In this document: positions 59,022 through 64,000 of the stretch, one piece after another
How the letters are laid out: each line of letters begins with the position of its first letter
Position numbering within the stretch: the stretch's first letter is position 1
DNA from: Paracoccaceae bacterium
GTDB taxonomy: Bacteria > Pseudomonadota > Alphaproteobacteria > Rhodobacterales > Rhodobacteraceae
NCBI GenBank assembly: GCA_020446815.1
Contig: JAGRDY010000034.1
Span: 1 to 64,000, forward strand
Reading direction: 5' to 3'
Length of the DNA: 64,000 bases
The notes under the pieces: generated by a model
What the model was told of the DNA's origin: nothing
Seen by the model: the letters and a program-made list of their open reading frames with translations, nothing else
Database searches by the model: none
Translations under genes and position numbers: made by a program

Positions 59022-59145
59022 TCTATAGCGCTTCGACTTGACCTTGAATCGCGTGTTCGCTGTCTCTCCCCTTCGGTCGAACGCGAAAAGCGGTGCCCGA
59101 TGCTTTGAGACGAAGCCGAAACGATTTGGTCAGAGGATCGACCAT
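59022..59145. repeat. Possible small dispersed intergenic repeat
   Basis: The run CTATAGCGCTTCGAC ... CGCGAAAAGCGGTGCCCGATG ... CGAAACGATTTGGTC resembles short dispersed intergenic elements of alphaproteobacteria. Its core GCGAAAAGCGGTGCC also occurs at 7241 of this window, preceded there too by CTCTCC at about the same distance. I cannot define its ends. Confidence 0.35.
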
Positions 59146-59163
59146 AGAGCCGGAGAATTGACC

Positions 59164-59424
59164 ATGAACGATGCGGTTTCTGATGCAAGCTACAGTGTCA
59201 CTGCCGATGAATTGCGCCAATTTATTGAGCGTTTCGAGCATCTTGAAGCGGAAAAGAAGGACATATCCGATCAGCAGAAAGAGGTGATGGCCGAAGCCAA
59301 GGGGCGCGGCTATGACACCAGGGTGATCCGCAAGGTGATTGCCCTGCGCAAGCGTGACAAGGATGATCTGGCCGAAGAAGAGGCCGTGCTGGAGATGTAC
59401 AAGGCAGCACTCGGGATGGCCTAG
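59164..59424 (+). CDS. DUF2312 protein (GapR-like)
   Basis: 86-residue alphaproteobacterial DUF2312 protein: ELRQFIERFEHLEAEKKDISDQQKEVMAEAKGRGYDTRVIRKVIALRK. The family includes GapR of Caulobacter, which binds overtwisted DNA ahead of polymerases as a helical tetramer. The three-helix pattern and the basic residues (KGRGYD, RKVIALRKR) that contact DNA are present. GGAG precedes the ATG. Stands alone. Confidence 0.93.
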   Translation: MNDAVSDASYSVTADELRQFIERFEHLEAEKKDISDQQKEVMAEAKGRGYDTRVIRKVIALRKRDKDDLAEEEAVLEMYKAALGMA

Positions 59425-59562: not shown

Positions 59563-60984
59563 TCAGGGTGGGGTTGCCGGGCCGCCCGCGACGGCCCTGG
59601 GGCGGGCGTGGGCGGTATCTTCATACGGTGCCTGGCCAAGATAACGGCTGACCCGCTGGCCGGTATCGAGCGCGGCATCAGCGCAAGCACCGACCGACAC
59701 GCCGCACAGGTAATTTCCGGTGACGAACACCCCGGGTGTTTCGCACAACGCCTGCTTCAGCCGTGCCACCAGGCGGGAGTGGCCGGGTTCGAACTGCGGC
59801 AAGCCTCTGGGCCAATGCCGGATCCGCGCCACGACCGGCGCGCCATCTGCGCCTATGAGATCGGCAAACTCGGCGCGCACGATGTCGATCAGCTCCTGCG
59901 CCGGAAGGCGCGCGTGATCCGGGGCGCGGGCGCCGCCCACATAGGCACTGATCGCCACATGATCGGCGGGCGCGCGCCCGGCGAACATTGTCGAACAGAA
60001 CAGCGCCCCGTTGACGACGCGCGCTTCACAGCCGGGTGTCAGATAACCGAGCCCGTTCAGCGGATGCGCGATCCGGTCGCGCCGGTAGCCGAGAAAGATC
60101 ACCGCGAGCGGCGGCGCGGCGATGCGCGCGCATTCGTCTGCGGCGCGCGGGGCGAGAGGCGCCAGCAGATGCGCCGCGACATGAGGTTGCGTGGCGATGA
60201 TCACCGCCCTCGCGTGAAGGTGCCCCCGGGGCCCGGCGTCGATGACGAAACCCTGCCGCGCGCGGTCGATCCGGCGCACCGGGACGGCGGTTTTTACCGC
60301 GCCGCCCAGGCTCAGTGCAAGCGCGCGGGGCAACGTGCCGATACCGTCGCGCCATGACGACAGCTGCCGCGCGGGCATTCTGGCGCCCGTCAGGCGGGCA
60401 CGCAGGATCGCCGCGATGAGCGATCCATGCGCGTGCTCCATCGCGGCCAGCGCGGGCATCACGAAGCCAAGCTCGGTGCGCGCGGCGTCGCCTGCGAACA
60501 TCCCCGCGACCAGCGGGTCGAAAACCCGTTCGGCGAATTCGGCGCCGAACCGGCGCCGGGCGAATTCCGCGACGGTTTCGCCGGCGCCCCGATCACCGCG
60601 CGGCTGCCACAATTCGGCGGCCAGTCGCGCCCGTCCGGCCAGCGACAGATAGCCCGATGTCAGGAACGCCAGCGGATGAAGGCCGATTCCCGCCAGCCGC
60701 CCGCCTTTCGTCAGGAACCGCTTGCGGACATTCGGGCCAAGATCGGTGCGCGCGCGGCCCAGCCCGAGGCTTTCCGCCAGATATGCGATTCCCGCCATGG
60801 AATGATTGACCGTGCTGGGGCCATGTTCCATCAGAAAGCCGCCGATCCGCTCGGAAATCGCGTTTCCTCCGGGGCACACCTGCCGTTCCAGCACCAGCAC
60901 ATCGTGGCCCGCCTCGCGCAGCGCGTGGGCGGCGGTCAGGCCCGACACGCCGCCACCGATGATGGCCGCGTCAACCGAGGTCAT
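59563..60984 (-). CDS. Protoporphyrinogen-oxidase-like FAD-dependent oxidoreductase
   Basis: 473-residue flavoprotein of the HemY/PPOX-like amine oxidase family. FAD fingerprint VDAAIIGGGVSGLTAAHALREAGHDVLVLER at residues 4-34; RIGGFLMEHGPSTV is the second FAD contact; FDPLVAGMFAGDA is a strong PPOX motif (PLVGGIYAGD-like); VFVTGNYLCGVSVGACADAA is the C-terminal FAD motif (as in 'AGNWRGGVSVGDC'). Oxidation of a porphyrinogen-like or other tetrapyrrole substrate is plausible. Its 5' end overlaps the radical SAM gene by 14 nt. It may finish the product made by that enzyme. Confidence 0.85.
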   Translation of the reverse strand: MTSVDAAIIGGGVSGLTAAHALREAGHDVLVLERQVCPGGNAISERIGGFLMEHGPSTVNHSMAGIAYLAESLGLGRARTDLGPNVRKRFLTKGGRLAGIGLHPLAFLTSGYLSLAGRARLAAELWQPRGDRGAGETVAEFARRRFGAEFAERVFDPLVAGMFAGDAARTELGFVMPALAAMEHAHGSLIAAILRARLTGARMPARQLSSWRDGIGTLPRALALSLGGAVKTAVPVRRIDRARQGFVIDAGPRGHLHARAVIIATQPHVAAHLLAPLAPRAADECARIAAPPLAVIFLGYRRDRIAHPLNGLGYLTPGCEARVVNGALFCSTMFAGRAPADHVAISAYVGGARAPDHARLPAQELIDIVRAEFADLIGADGAPVVARIRHWPRGLPQFEPGHSRLVARLKQALCETPGVFVTGNYLCGVSVGACADAALDTGQRVSRYLGQAPYEDTAHARPRAVAGGPATPP

Positions 60985-62269
60985 GGCGTCTTTCCGGCCG
61001 GGTCCGCGCAGCCTCCGCGCCCGGCCGCGGCGGCGCAGCGGAGCCAAAGCGGCTGCGCGCCAGAACCTCCAGATGTTCGGTGGTTACCGTGTCGCAGCCT
61101 AGCGCGCCCGCATAGGCCTCGGCCCGTTGGCGAACGAATCGGCGCACGAAGGGCGGCACGCGGGCCAATCGCGTCCGCGCCGTCTCGGTCCAGGTGACGG
61201 CGGGGGCATCGGTGCGTGGCATGTGCGGGATCGCGCCGGTTGCGTCGGGCTGGTAGGCGCAGAGCGGATCTTCGCCCATCATGTCGCCCGTCGCGGCGAA
61301 AGGGCGGGCGCGGCAGCCGCCACAGATCCTGGCGTATTCACAAAGTCCGCAGCGGCCGGTGAGCCGCGGCGCGCGCAGCCGTTCGAACACCGGCGCGTCT
61401 TGCCAGATGTCGGCAAAGCCGCGTTCGCGGATCGAACCGGCGCTGATTTCCATGTAGGGGCAGGGGGTGATCTCGCCCGAAGGCGTGACGCGGGCGTATC
61501 GGGTGCCGGCAAGGCATCCGCCGGCCTCGTAGCCATGCGCCAGCGTGATTGGCCAGCCAGCATCAAGTTCGATCGCCATACGCTTGAAATGCGGCGCACA
61601 TTTCGCGCGGATCATGATCCCCTCCGCGGCGCGCGCCGCGCGGGTCAGATGGCGCAGGGTGCGGTCGTATCCGGCGCGGCTGATGTTGCTGACATAACGC
61701 CCCCGCCCGGTACAGACCAGGAAGAACACGTTGAGCGCGATGGCCCCGATCGATTGTGCGAAGGCGATCATCGCATCCAGTTCCCCCGCGGTGTCGTCGG
61801 TGACGGTGAAATGGATCTGAAAGCCAAGGCCGCCGCGCCGGCAGGCGTCGATCCCCGCCATGGTGCGTCCGAAGCTGCCGGGCAGCCCGCGAAAGGCGTC
61901 GTGCCGGCCGGGGTCGAGCGAATCGACGCTGATCCCGACCCCGACCACTCCGGCACCTTTCAGCGCCGCAACCCGTCTGTCGGTCAGCGCCATGCCATTG
62001 GTGCCGACCACCACCATCAGCCCGAGGCCGGCGGCATGGGCGGCGATCTGCTCGATATCGGGGCGCAAAAGCGGCTCGCCGCCGCTCAGCACCAGCATGG
62101 TTTCGTCGCTGAGCGCCGCGATGTCGCCGATCAGCGCGCAGACTTCGCGGGTGGTCAGTTCTTGGGGATCGGCATCGCGCCGTTTGCCCGCGTCGAGATA
62201 GCAATGGGCGCAGTCGAGATTGCAGCGCCGGGTCAGGTTCAGGGCAACAAGATAGGGCGCGCCGACCAT
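60971..62269 (-). CDS. Radical SAM enzyme with SPASM-like and C-terminal PCP_red-like domains
   Basis: 432-residue radical SAM protein. The [4Fe-4S]-SAM motif is Cys16-Cys20-Cys23 (TRRCNLDCAHCYLD), with GGEP at 63-66. Seven further cysteines (GGCLAGT, ITPCPYM, RCGLCEYARICGGCRA, PLCAYQP) make a SPASM/twitch-like auxiliary-cluster region such as in AhbC/AhbD/NirJ, which modify hemes. Uniquely, residues about 358-409 (TWTETARTRLARVPPFVRRF, then RAEAYAGALGCDTVTTEHLE) resemble the PCP_red domain of BchB. The ATG at 62269 has GAGGG close by; GTG 62278 overlaps the previous stop. Substrate unknown, probably a tetrapyrrole. Confidence 0.85.
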   Translation of the reverse strand: MVGAPYLVALNLTRRCNLDCAHCYLDAGKRRDADPQELTTREVCALIGDIAALSDETMLVLSGGEPLLRPDIEQIAAHAAGLGLMVVVGTNGMALTDRRVAALKGAGVVGVGISVDSLDPGRHDAFRGLPGSFGRTMAGIDACRRGGLGFQIHFTVTDDTAGELDAMIAFAQSIGAIALNVFFLVCTGRGRYVSNISRAGYDRTLRHLTRAARAAEGIMIRAKCAPHFKRMAIELDAGWPITLAHGYEAGGCLAGTRYARVTPSGEITPCPYMEISAGSIRERGFADIWQDAPVFERLRAPRLTGRCGLCEYARICGGCRARPFAATGDMMGEDPLCAYQPDATGAIPHMPRTDAPAVTWTETARTRLARVPPFVRRFVRQRAEAYAGALGCDTVTTEHLEVLARSRFGSAAPPRPGAEAARTRPERRHDLG

Positions 62270-62274
62270 GGCCC

Positions 62275-63924
62275 TCACTCCGCGTCGGCTGGCGGCACGG
62301 GGTGGCCGCCACGCTGCATCCTGCGTTCCATCCTTTGCCGGGATGCGGTGATCACGGTTTCGAGCAGCGCGGGCGTTATCTCGGCGGCGGCCGTTTCGGC
62401 GGCCTCCGCCTCGGTCTGCCGGCGGATGGTGGCGCGCACCATTTCGGGCACGCGCGCCAGCCGCGCCAGGGCCGCGGCGTTCCATCGGGCCACCGGGGCT
62501 GCGGCGTCAAGAAACGGGCGAACATGCGCGGGCAATACCCGCTCGGCGCCGTCACGGCGCGCGCGTTTCTCGGCCCGCAGCCGGATCGCCGCAACCATCG
62601 CGGCGCCGCCGCCATTGCGCGCCAGCGTCTCGGCCTCGCGGGACCAGACCACCGGCGTTTCCCGGCGGGAATCGCCGCCGGAATGCGGGCACAGTTTCCG
62701 TGTCGCCCGCTCGATCAGATCGCAGGTGACGACGGTGTGGCCGCTTTCCTGCGCGAAACGCTGAACGGCAAGCCGGATCATGGCGCGCGCCATTTGCGGT
62801 GCCCGCGCGAGCCGGGCCTCGGCCTCTTGCGTCCAGTGCATGGTATGTTCGGCCAGTGCGTCGGCCGGCGGCACGAAGGCGCAAGCGCCAAGCCAGACAT
62901 GACAAGGCGCGCCGCGCAGCAGGTTTTCGGCGTTGCCGCCGATGTCCAGTTGGTCATCGGCATGAATGCCGGTCCGGCCGATCAGCAGAAGACCGGCGCG
63001 GGCCTTCGCCAGATAGGCGGCGATGGCGGCAAATGGCTTGCCGTCAAGCAATTTCGTGGTCAGCGGCACGCCTTCGTCCCTGGCGATCCGCTCGGCCAGC
63101 GCCAGATGCGCGCGGTAGATCTTTGCCAGTCCGTCGTCGATGATCTCTTCGTGCAGCCTTTCCTGTTCCTTGAAACGGAATACCTTGCCGGCCTCGTCGC
63201 TGAGCACCCCGGCGATGCGGTTGAAGGCGACGTAGTGGAAATAGGGGTCGTATGCGGCGACGGCATGGACCGGAAGCGCAAAGGCGCGCCCCAGCCGCAA
63301 CGCGGTTTTCAGCGCCCCGTAGCTGCGAGGCGAGCCATCGACAGCGGCGACCAATGGCCCGGCCGCGATCGCGCGGGCCGGATCGCGGATCACCAGAAGG
63401 TCGATGCCCGCCCGCCGCGCCACCCGTTCGCAGACCGAACCAACACTGGCCCCCGGTGTCGCACCAAGCCCCTGCGCACCCATCGCCAGCAGATCGAACC
63501 CGTCGATGGCGGCCGCCGCGACGATCTGGCGATAGTTCTTGCCTTCGGGGCTGAGCCGGCCATAGGCGATGCCGGCAGCCTCGCAGGCCGCGCCGGCTTT
63601 GTCATGGTAGCTGTCGGAAATGATGCCGAGCCCGCGTGTGATCAGGCTGTCATGCACCGCGCGCTGATGCTCGATACCCTCTTCGGTGCGGTAGCGTTCG
63701 GGCAGGCCGCCTTCCATTTGCCTGAACCGGCGGTCGTGCAGGCGCGCGGCATAGGCGTGAATGCCGGTGATCGCGCCGCCCGATACACCGGCCAGGCGCA
63801 GCGCCTCCTCCAGCGCCCGTGCCGCGTGATCCGAGGCATCAAGCGCCACGAGGATCTGCCGCGGCAGCGCCGCGCGAGCCGCGCCCCGCGTGGTGTCAGG
63901 CATTGCCTCAACCGTGCCCTTCAT
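62275..63924 (-). CDS. Double universal-stress protein with three PCP_red-like repeats
   Basis: 549-residue protein. Residues about 20-190 and 200-360 are two UspA domains (RQILVALDASDHAARALEEAL; GPLVAAVDGSPRSYGALKTAL). The second keeps an ATP-binding G-2x-G-9x-G-type loop (IGRTGIHADDQLDIGGNAENLL). From residue 362 there are three repeats: MHWTQEAEARLARAPQMARAM (362-411), VVWSREAETLARNGGGAAMVA (about 424-472) and RWNAAALARLARVPEMVRATI (about 480-533). Each resembles the PCP_red domain of BchB (W-x-EA...L..-P-x-VR...E--A...-IT-E-L). An AAGGAAA site favours the start at 63924. It is the first visible gene of the operon that includes the radical SAM and PPOX-like enzymes. Confidence 0.8.
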   Translation of the reverse strand: MKGTVEAMPDTTRGAARAALPRQILVALDASDHAARALEEALRLAGVSGGAITGIHAYAARLHDRRFRQMEGGLPERYRTEEGIEHQRAVHDSLITRGLGIISDSYHDKAGAACEAAGIAYGRLSPEGKNYRQIVAAAAIDGFDLLAMGAQGLGATPGASVGSVCERVARRAGIDLLVIRDPARAIAAGPLVAAVDGSPRSYGALKTALRLGRAFALPVHAVAAYDPYFHYVAFNRIAGVLSDEAGKVFRFKEQERLHEEIIDDGLAKIYRAHLALAERIARDEGVPLTTKLLDGKPFAAIAAYLAKARAGLLLIGRTGIHADDQLDIGGNAENLLRGAPCHVWLGACAFVPPADALAEHTMHWTQEAEARLARAPQMARAMIRLAVQRFAQESGHTVVTCDLIERATRKLCPHSGGDSRRETPVVWSREAETLARNGGGAAMVAAIRLRAEKRARRDGAERVLPAHVRPFLDAAAPVARWNAAALARLARVPEMVRATIRRQTEAEAAETAAAEITPALLETVITASRQRMERRMQRGGHPVPPADAE

Positions 63925-64000
63925 CGCGGTTTCCTTCCTTGCTCGATGCGTTTCGGCGCAGCGCGCGAAGCCCCCCAAGCTGGGCTGCGAGCACCCCTGC
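63908..64000 (-). CDS. Possible 3' end of an upstream gene (partial)
   Basis: An open frame enters from the right edge and stops at 63908, giving 30 residues (AGVLAAQLGGLRALRRNASS...). It overlaps the start of the double-Usp gene by 17 nt, as the other genes of this operon do. Too short for recognition; it may be the end of another member of the operon, or chance. Confidence 0.35.
   Translation of the reverse strand, partial: AGVLAAQLGGLRALRRNASSKEGNRDEGHG

Follow-up and report, generated by a model that had tools for sequence, protein, structure and literature searches.

Clusters that join a nitrite oxidoreductase (NXR) to a bd-like oxidase (OR-N) are described from Nitrospira, Nitrospina and anammox bacteria (PMC3578206, PMC6606698, PMC12342949), and the types of OR-N are treated in PMC12342949 and PMC10839748. 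In the parts of these papers drawn on here, the bd-like oxidase is called enigmatic, with the heme b ligands conserved and the quinol loop missing, and is said to cluster with NXR, an alternative NxrC, a TorD-like protein and cytochromes (PMC3578206), while bd-like genes show high transcript levels in N. moscoviensis (PMC6606698). The subject of this report is a trio of genes in a 64,000-nucleotide stretch of DNA (the window; bases 1–64000 of contig JAGRDY010000034.1, our C21, in assembly GCA_020446815.1, our genome G000) from a Paracoccaceae bacterium, so that the host in this case is an alphaproteobacterium. The three genes, usp, rsam and ppox, encode a universal stress protein (Usp) with three PCP_red domains, a radical S-adenosylmethionine enzyme (rSAM) with one PCP_red domain, and a flavoprotein resembling protoporphyrinogen oxidase (PPOX). 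As judged from its sequence, the trio is the tail of an NXR operon of the periplasmic type, and its steadiest partner across relatives is the bd-like oxidase.

The trio is absent from the accounts of the NXR/bd-like OR-N cluster in the consulted parts of PMC3578206, PMC6606698 and PMC12342949, and the term ‘universal stress’ has zero occurrences in these papers and in PMC10839748. No paper linking PCP_red, Usp or radical SAM proteins to these clusters was found in the open-licence literature, searched without supplementary gene tables, in which a prior mention is possible. Likewise, no discussion of heme supply to the bd-like oxidase was found in the portions of the cluster literature seen, and nothing specific was found in the literature on an alphaproteobacterial periplasmic-type NXR operon. 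This suggests that a helper module for the heme of the bd-like oxidase, as proposed below, is undescribed.

The trio and the nitrite oxidoreductase operon

The initial annotation, made on the window alone, had recognised three abutting or overlapping minus-strand genes at 59563–63924 and taken them for a candidate new tetrapyrrole operon. The gene layout and domain make-up were borne out: usp (two Usp domains and three PCP_red repeats) is separated from rsam (radical SAM/SPASM and PCP_red) by 5 bases, and rsam overlaps the HemY-type ppox by 14 bases (Table 1). The starts at 62269 (rsam) and 60984 (ppox) are, on our reading, the most likely ones, that of rsam being preferred because a longer open reading frame from 62485 would enter usp. 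The gene run upstream of usp extends about 10 kb past the window edge, a continuation absent from the initial annotation because the window ends there. Past the edge, the same strand encodes an NxrC-like EB_dh protein, a TorD-like protein, NxrB and NxrA. After nxrA come the genes for two c-type cytochromes and for a bd-like oxidase and, at a greater distance, a regulator gene of the BTAD type.

NxrA matched the alpha chain of anammox NXR (7b04) at 1576 bits over residues 22–1181 of 1184, against 162 bits for the next-best enzyme, the type II DMSO-reductase-family chain 4ydd, which we take to be perchlorate reductase. The NxrC-like match had an E value of 6.7e-19, and its EB_dh domain scored 80.4 bits (PF09459; gathering score 33.3). 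A full-length NxrA together with NxrB-like, NxrC-like and TorD-like proteins places the operon in the periplasmic (Nitrospira/anammox) type, and its bd-like oxidase, a candidate OR-N, is homologous to the bd-like genes of Nitrospirota. The trio genes form the predicted 3' end of this operon, and the reading of them as a free-standing tetrapyrrole operon was rejected on that ground.

PCP_red domains and the trio proteins

PCP_red is the C-terminal domain of BchB in the dark-operative protochlorophyllide reductase (PF08369; PDB 2kru, 2ynm). It is common to BchB and to the Usp and rSAM proteins of the trio, which, unlike BchB, lack a nitrogenase-like body. That the Usp protein carries three C-terminal copies and the rSAM one had been proposed from the letters alone, and profile searches agree: against a PF08369 gathering score of 32.5, Pfam gave 68.1 bits for the Usp protein and about 48.6 for the rSAM, passing two of the three Usp repeats (1 and 3). 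Our own model, seeded from rSAM copies alone, matched Usp residues 362–406 (39 bits) and 480–524 (36 bits), and after one iteration it recovered all three repeats (Table 1). Since shuffled Usp tails (n = 2000) scored at best 6.8 bits with our model, the protein is considered to have three repeats, the middle one degenerate.

Conservation was assessed in 46 Usp (A5) and 44 rSAM (A6) homologues with more than 93% model coverage and less than 85% mutual identity, together with a few added Nitrospirota sequences; a few automatically picked sequences were excluded from A6, and copies that were short or split, such as the L126 rSAM (L and G numbers are our designations of loci and genomes), did not enter the counts. 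Three repeats were present in 37/46 Usp homologues and the Trp of repeat 2 was kept in 45/46, while repeat 1 of the window protein aligns to 2kru. A BchB remnant was rejected, as the match to TIGR01278 (51.5 bits; cut-off 490) is confined to the C-terminal domain, and because a PF08369 search of the G000 genome matched no gene beyond usp and rsam, no BchB is encoded there.

PCP_red also occurs N-terminal to a Chlor_dismutase domain in three proteins from Nitrospirota genomes, with both domains over their cut-offs, and in the one fusion searched (L201) the best solved relatives were coproheme decarboxylases. These members of the coproheme decarboxylase/chlorite dismutase family combine PCP_red with a heme-type enzyme as the trio does, but their catalytic fold differs and they do not adjoin a trio within the 7–9 kb stretches seen. 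AhbD and coproheme decarboxylase carry out identical chemistry on coproheme, as stated in the part of PMC7242693 used here. No other observation hints as strongly at a tetrapyrrole role as the presence of PCP_red on relatives of both enzymes, and it supports, at the level of sequence, a view of PCP_red as a probable tetrapyrrole-linked module fused to heme- and chlorophyll-type enzymes. Separately, two Nitrospirota genomes encode a double-PCP_red protein with a Cys-rich, ribbon-like start, directly after the gene for an Mrp-type iron-transfer ATPase; the L130 ATPase matches NUBPL/Mrp, while the L131 pair was judged by sequence likeness and our own models only.

The Usp protein contains two PF00582 stretches (98.1 bits; cut-off 24). 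ATP-binding members of the family share the motif G-2x-G-9x-G(S/T), the glycines of which (G149, G152 and G162; G316, G319 and G329) are present in 46/46 homologues. The position following the last glycine is Ser or Thr in 45/46 in the first domain (residue 163), whereas in the second domain the last motif position is Gly in 38/46 and Ser in 8/46. The protein thus falls among ATP-binding-type universal stress proteins. The best fold match of its AlphaFold2 model (predicted local distance difference test score, pLDDT, 87; predicted template modelling score, pTM, 0.72) was the tandem Usp TTHA0350 with ATP. The conserved motifs, the ATP-bound tandem-Usp relatives and the three PCP_red repeats together suggest that Usp-(PCP_red)3 may be an ATP-binding carrier or scaffold.

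The rSAM exceeded the cut-offs of PF04055 (81 bits) and SPASM PF13186 (35 bits), and its CxxxCxxC motif and eight further Cys (11 in total) are invariant in 44/44 homologues; the eight extra residues would be enough for auxiliary clusters. Only three NCBIfam models, NirJ2, AhbD and TIGR04053, were matched by all 44 homologues at E <= 1e-60 (one homologue additionally matched the pseudo-SAM family TIGR04347). AhbD (heme b synthase) and NirJ2 (a putative heme d1 enzyme) rank first among curated models for the window protein, with alignments spanning the full models. The protein shares the SPASM Cys with these nearest curated families; unlike them, it carries PCP_red and lies in a respiratory operon with an oxidase. 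True membership of AhbD or NirJ2 was rejected, as its scores reach 61–63% of the equivalog cut-offs. Its AlphaFold2 model had a pLDDT of 88 and a pTM of 0.88. In a possible parallel to the trio, Halobaculum plasmids (L199, L200) carry a type II molybdenum (Mo) operon that includes genes for EB_dh, a HEAT protein and a cbb3-type oxidase; it adjoins genes for radical SAM proteins of TIGR04053 and TIGR04347 and for a candidate ribosomally synthesised and post-translationally modified peptide (RiPP).

The third protein scored 212.9 bits against TIGR00562 (equivalog cut-off 97.85), and the Myxococcus PPOX (2ivd) matched its residues 2–438 at 204 bits. With this near full-length likeness it belongs with the HemY-type protoporphyrinogen IX oxidases, in line with the PPOX-like assignment made at the outset, and is predicted to oxidise porphyrinogen. 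It is the sole match in the genome above the HemY cut-off, and since G000 also encodes a separate HemJ, it is the genome's second PPOX, placed within the trio.

Conservation of the trio and co-occurrence with the bd-like oxidase

The genome contigs of 84,980 species were scanned for relatives of Usp with two peptide patterns, a sampling that under-represents distant ones; 113 were confirmed and the best 80 kept. Where the contig runs on for at least 1.6 kb after usp, rsam is found there on the same strand in 59/67 loci, a recurrence that excludes chance arrangement (rSAM is missing in L109, L114, L115 and five Nitrospirota loci). Of the 59 loci with at least 3 kb, 50 have a PPOX gene no more than 8 kb away, on one strand or the other (missing in L069, L115, L126 and six Nitrospirota loci), and 49 of 57 PPOX-bearing loci keep the order usp-rsam-ppox on one strand. 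The linkage seen in the window therefore recurs in related genomes.

The trio was also found in a second genome of the same order and family, G184 (identity 50% for Usp, 58% for rSAM and 47% for PPOX), where it follows a different Mo enzyme, whose large subunit resembles that of arsenite oxidase (425 bits against TIGR02693; cut-off 359). That locus further encodes Rieske-like, HEAT, fn3-like and FGE-sulfatase-like proteins, two proteins of the diheme peroxidase/MauG-like kind, a bd-like oxidase and a cytochrome c fused to a domain like the type II gamma subunit (90 bits against TIGR03477, short of the cut-off of 169.85). Across the Usp loci, nxrA occurred on 7, an arsenite-oxidase-like gene on 25 and both on none. 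A Usp tree of 81 rows made by a quick method, 33 of them labelled (8 NXR, 25 arsenite-oxidase-like), required at least three label changes, indicating that the trio is not bound to a single Mo enzyme. As controls served three Mo clusters that have neither bd-like nor EB_dh genes, from Vibrio, Azonexus and Natronococcus plasmids (the best plasmid matches, ~21 kb each); they contained no trio, their MoaA-like and plain Usp-like proteins matched the rSAM and Usp models weakly (63 and 36 bits), and the plasmid searches yielded no Usp-PCP_red and no bd-like oxidase. A role of the trio in Mo-enzyme maturation is disfavoured, as the trio goes with two Mo families and is lacking from the three Mo clusters without bd-like genes.

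The bd-like oxidase is the steadiest partner of the trio. Its gene was located on 32/80 Usp loci and, for 41 of 46 other loci searched, elsewhere in the genome (E <= 1e-30); in addition, L095 is the contig of G184, which has the oxidase, and L108 shares an assembly with L104, which also has it, bringing the total to 75/80. A sample of 292 genomes of the order was searched with PCP_red and bd-like models. The bd-like oxidase was present in exactly two of these (E <= 1e-40), G000 and G184, which are also the sole two with three PCP_red matches, while 118 other genomes had one or two, assumed to be photosynthesis proteins. Among 148 Nitrospirota genomes, 55 have the bd-like oxidase, every one of them with PCP_red; the oxidase is found in 53/55 genomes with at least two PCP_red matches, 2/23 with one and 0/70 with none. 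All 28 Nitrospirota genomes with an NxrA of 49–57% identity had at least 11 PCP_red matches each among the matches listed. NXR itself was rejected as the PCP_red partner, as NxrA went undetected at E <= 1e-100 in 14 of 42 genomes with at least eight PCP_red matches, and the eight genomes whose NxrA has 39–41% identity had at most two such matches. PCP_red in the Nitrospirota thus tracks the bd-like oxidase better than it tracks NXR. G446, which has two NxrA, encodes Usp, rSAM and a CopD-like membrane protein in a row and PCP_red genes at several loci; at one of these, a single gene separates a double-PCP_red gene from a bd-like oxidase gene, with a DUF420 gene directly before and FN3- and FGE-like genes around.

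Proposed role and alternative explanations

We propose, with moderate confidence, that the trio forms a module devoted to handling tetrapyrroles (heme maturation) on behalf of a respiratory chain with the bd-like oxidase. The chain served would comprise this oxidase, c-type cytochromes and EB_dh heme-b proteins, and would receive electrons here from the periplasmic-type NXR and in relatives from the arsenite-oxidase-like Mo enzyme. PCP_red would bind or dock the tetrapyrrole, PPOX would oxidise a porphyrinogen to supply this branch, with HemJ as the housekeeping enzyme, and would feed or finish the tetrapyrrole, the rSAM may alter side chains of the macrocycle in the manner of AhbD and NirJ, and Usp-(PCP_red)3 could act as a carrier with several sites that binds ATP and hands the intermediate on between rSAM and PPOX. 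The tetrapyrrole link of the initial annotation gains from the rSAM model matches, the PPOX over its cut-off beside HemJ, the PCP_red-Chlor_dismutase fusions, and the Usp ATP motifs and fold; its free-standing operon has become the tail of an NXR operon, with the bd-like oxidase as steadiest partner. A bolder version, which we consider possible but doubtful, is that the trio makes an undescribed heme variant (for example, side-chain-altered or chlorin-like) needed by the bd-like oxidase or EB_dh subunits of nitrite oxidisers and their relatives, with PCP_red as the module by which a family of such pathways hands on tetrapyrroles (BchB, AhbD/NirJ-like rSAM, coproheme-decarboxylase-like enzymes and the Usp carrier).

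Several observations weigh against a maturation module. The window rSAM scores below the equivalog cut-offs of all its nearest families (AhbD TIGR04545, 315 bits versus 500; NirJ2 TIGR04055, 303 versus 500; TIGR04053, 261 versus 395), PPOX is on the opposite strand in six betaproteobacterial loci, and two loci have no rSAM between usp and ppox. PPOX lies near one of nine Nitrospirota Usp genes looked at (L204), and in seven other Nitrospirota Usp neighbourhoods a CopD-like membrane protein is nearby instead; this four-helix protein comes after Usp in L116, L118, L121, L122 and L123, after rSAM in L175 and after a gene for PCP_red alone in L127. Two of the three CopD-like proteins scanned exceeded the Pfam CopD cut-off. 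HemJ as the replacement for PPOX in Nitrospirota was rejected as the likeness is too weak: two of these proteins reached 19.9 and 15.2 bits against PF03653 (cut-off 34.2), the third had no match listed, and hhalign to the G000 HemJ gave a probability of 25%. No bd-like gene was detected in 5/46 genomes (L051, L053, L072, L094 and L100, all metagenome-assembled genomes), and in two Nitrospirota genomes, G301 and G307, the gene is missing although Usp and rSAM, and in G307 PPOX as well, are encoded; such absences may be gaps in draft assemblies. The Fisher value for bd-like oxidase and PCP_red in Nitrospirota (4e-35) ignores kinship and is not to be taken at face value. Finally, no ordinary EB_dh or bd enzyme is known to need such a module.

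Modification of a protein or peptide by the rSAM (the bd-like oxidase, an EB_dh subunit or a small peptide), with PCP_red as a protein docking domain without tetrapyrrole and the PPOX-like flavoprotein oxidising the modified residue, is the likeliest of the rival readings, and we regard it as rather unlikely. By fold, the rSAM model comes closest to the peptide-modifying SPASM enzymes PqqE, SuiB and SkfB, and haloarchaeal neighbourhoods of related genes include candidate RiPPs: TIGR04053, the nearest annotated family, adjoins a type II Mo operon with EB_dh and the candidate RiPP Htur_1727, and a CGCGG-type candidate lies near a Natronococcus NxrA-like gene. However, the heme-type AhbD and NirJ2 models are matched by 44/44 and rank first for the window protein, the abutting genes leave no space for a precursor gene, and clustering of neighbouring open reading frames (>=35 amino acids; the 45 largest families read by eye, most short ones being shadow frames) gave no obvious small precursor family. 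PCP_red on BchB and on a coproheme-decarboxylase-family protein likewise points to tetrapyrroles.

Usp family proteins are stress-linked nucleotide binders, and Usp-(PCP_red)3 could instead sense nucleotide and tetrapyrrole (redox, ATP or heme) and control the respiratory chain, with rSAM and PPOX as minor accessories. The invariant ATP-motif glycines, a rubredoxin-like domain matched in 3/46 Usp homologues (L127 over the cut-off, L123 just under) and a BTAD regulator gene nearby here and on five other loci would suit a sensor. The fixed order in which usp mostly occurs with two enzymes, and the same PCP_red module on two enzyme classes, fit a pathway better, and we consider the sensor improbable. 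It is less probable still that the trio is just a passenger on large respiratory islands and serves heme needs of a general kind. These islands are patchy (the oxidase is in 2/292 genomes of the order), so linked genes could co-travel, and some trio assemblies have no detected bd-like gene; against this, 41/46 genomes without the oxidase at the locus have it elsewhere (although many of these contigs are short), and the PCP_red genes of G446 lie at several loci, one near a bd-like oxidase gene, so that co-occurrence exceeds simple linkage. EB_dh alone as the trio's partner is an alternative consistent with EB_dh-like matches on 37/80 Usp loci, but Halobaculum plasmids that have EB_dh and no Usp-PCP_red count mildly against it.

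If the trio and other PCP_red proteins do mature the bd-like oxidase, they would offer a concrete handle on how this oxidase gets its heme, would explain the abundance of a chlorophyll-enzyme domain in the Nitrospirota genomes with close NxrA, and would predict a tetrapyrrole-handing role for PCP_red. The trio and the Nitrospirota genes also warn against PF08369 as a marker of phototrophy, the use made of it in the part of PMC12815261 consulted.

Table 1. Features of the trio locus (window coordinates) and of related loci (locus coordinates).
Feature	Position	Strand	Remarks
usp, two Usp domains (residues ~22–180 and ~190–346) and three PCP_red repeats	62275..63924	-	549 aa from ATG
PCP_red repeat 1 of Usp	62710..62841 (residues 362–405)	-	64 bits, iterated model; also PF08369
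PCP_red repeat 2 of Usp, degenerate	62518..62646 (residues 427–469)	-	17.5 bits, E 1.6e-5, iterated model
PCP_red repeat 3 of Usp	62359..62487 (residues 480–522)	-	44 bits, iterated model; also PF08369
rsam, radical SAM/SPASM enzyme with C-terminal PCP_red	60971..62269	-	432 aa; nearest models AhbD/NirJ2
PCP_red of rSAM protein	61067..61198 (residues 358–401)	-	62 bits, own model; also Pfam
ppox, HemY-type protoporphyrinogen oxidase-like flavoprotein	59563..60984	-	473 aa
nxrC-like 3' end (EB_dh heme b subunit)	63908..64000, gene runs on to ~64939	-	overlaps usp by 17 bases
nxrABC and TorD-like operon	63908 to ~70792 (L004:4909–11793)	-	marks the host as a candidate nitrite oxidiser
CopD-like protein after Usp or rSAM, Nitrospirota	L122:9992–12450, L123:10007–12546, L175:6561–10699		
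PCP_red and chlorite dismutase/coproheme decarboxylase family fusion	L134:1072–2031, L201:3036–4061, L202:2240–3256		
Mrp-type ATPase and double-PCP_red gene pair	L130:4781–6391, L131:7750–9398		

Rfam and tRNA scans of the window gave no match. On the other side of the trio lies a GapR-family gene (59110–59424, plus strand; PF10073, 112 bits), which is convergent with ppox and ends 138 bases from the ppox end.

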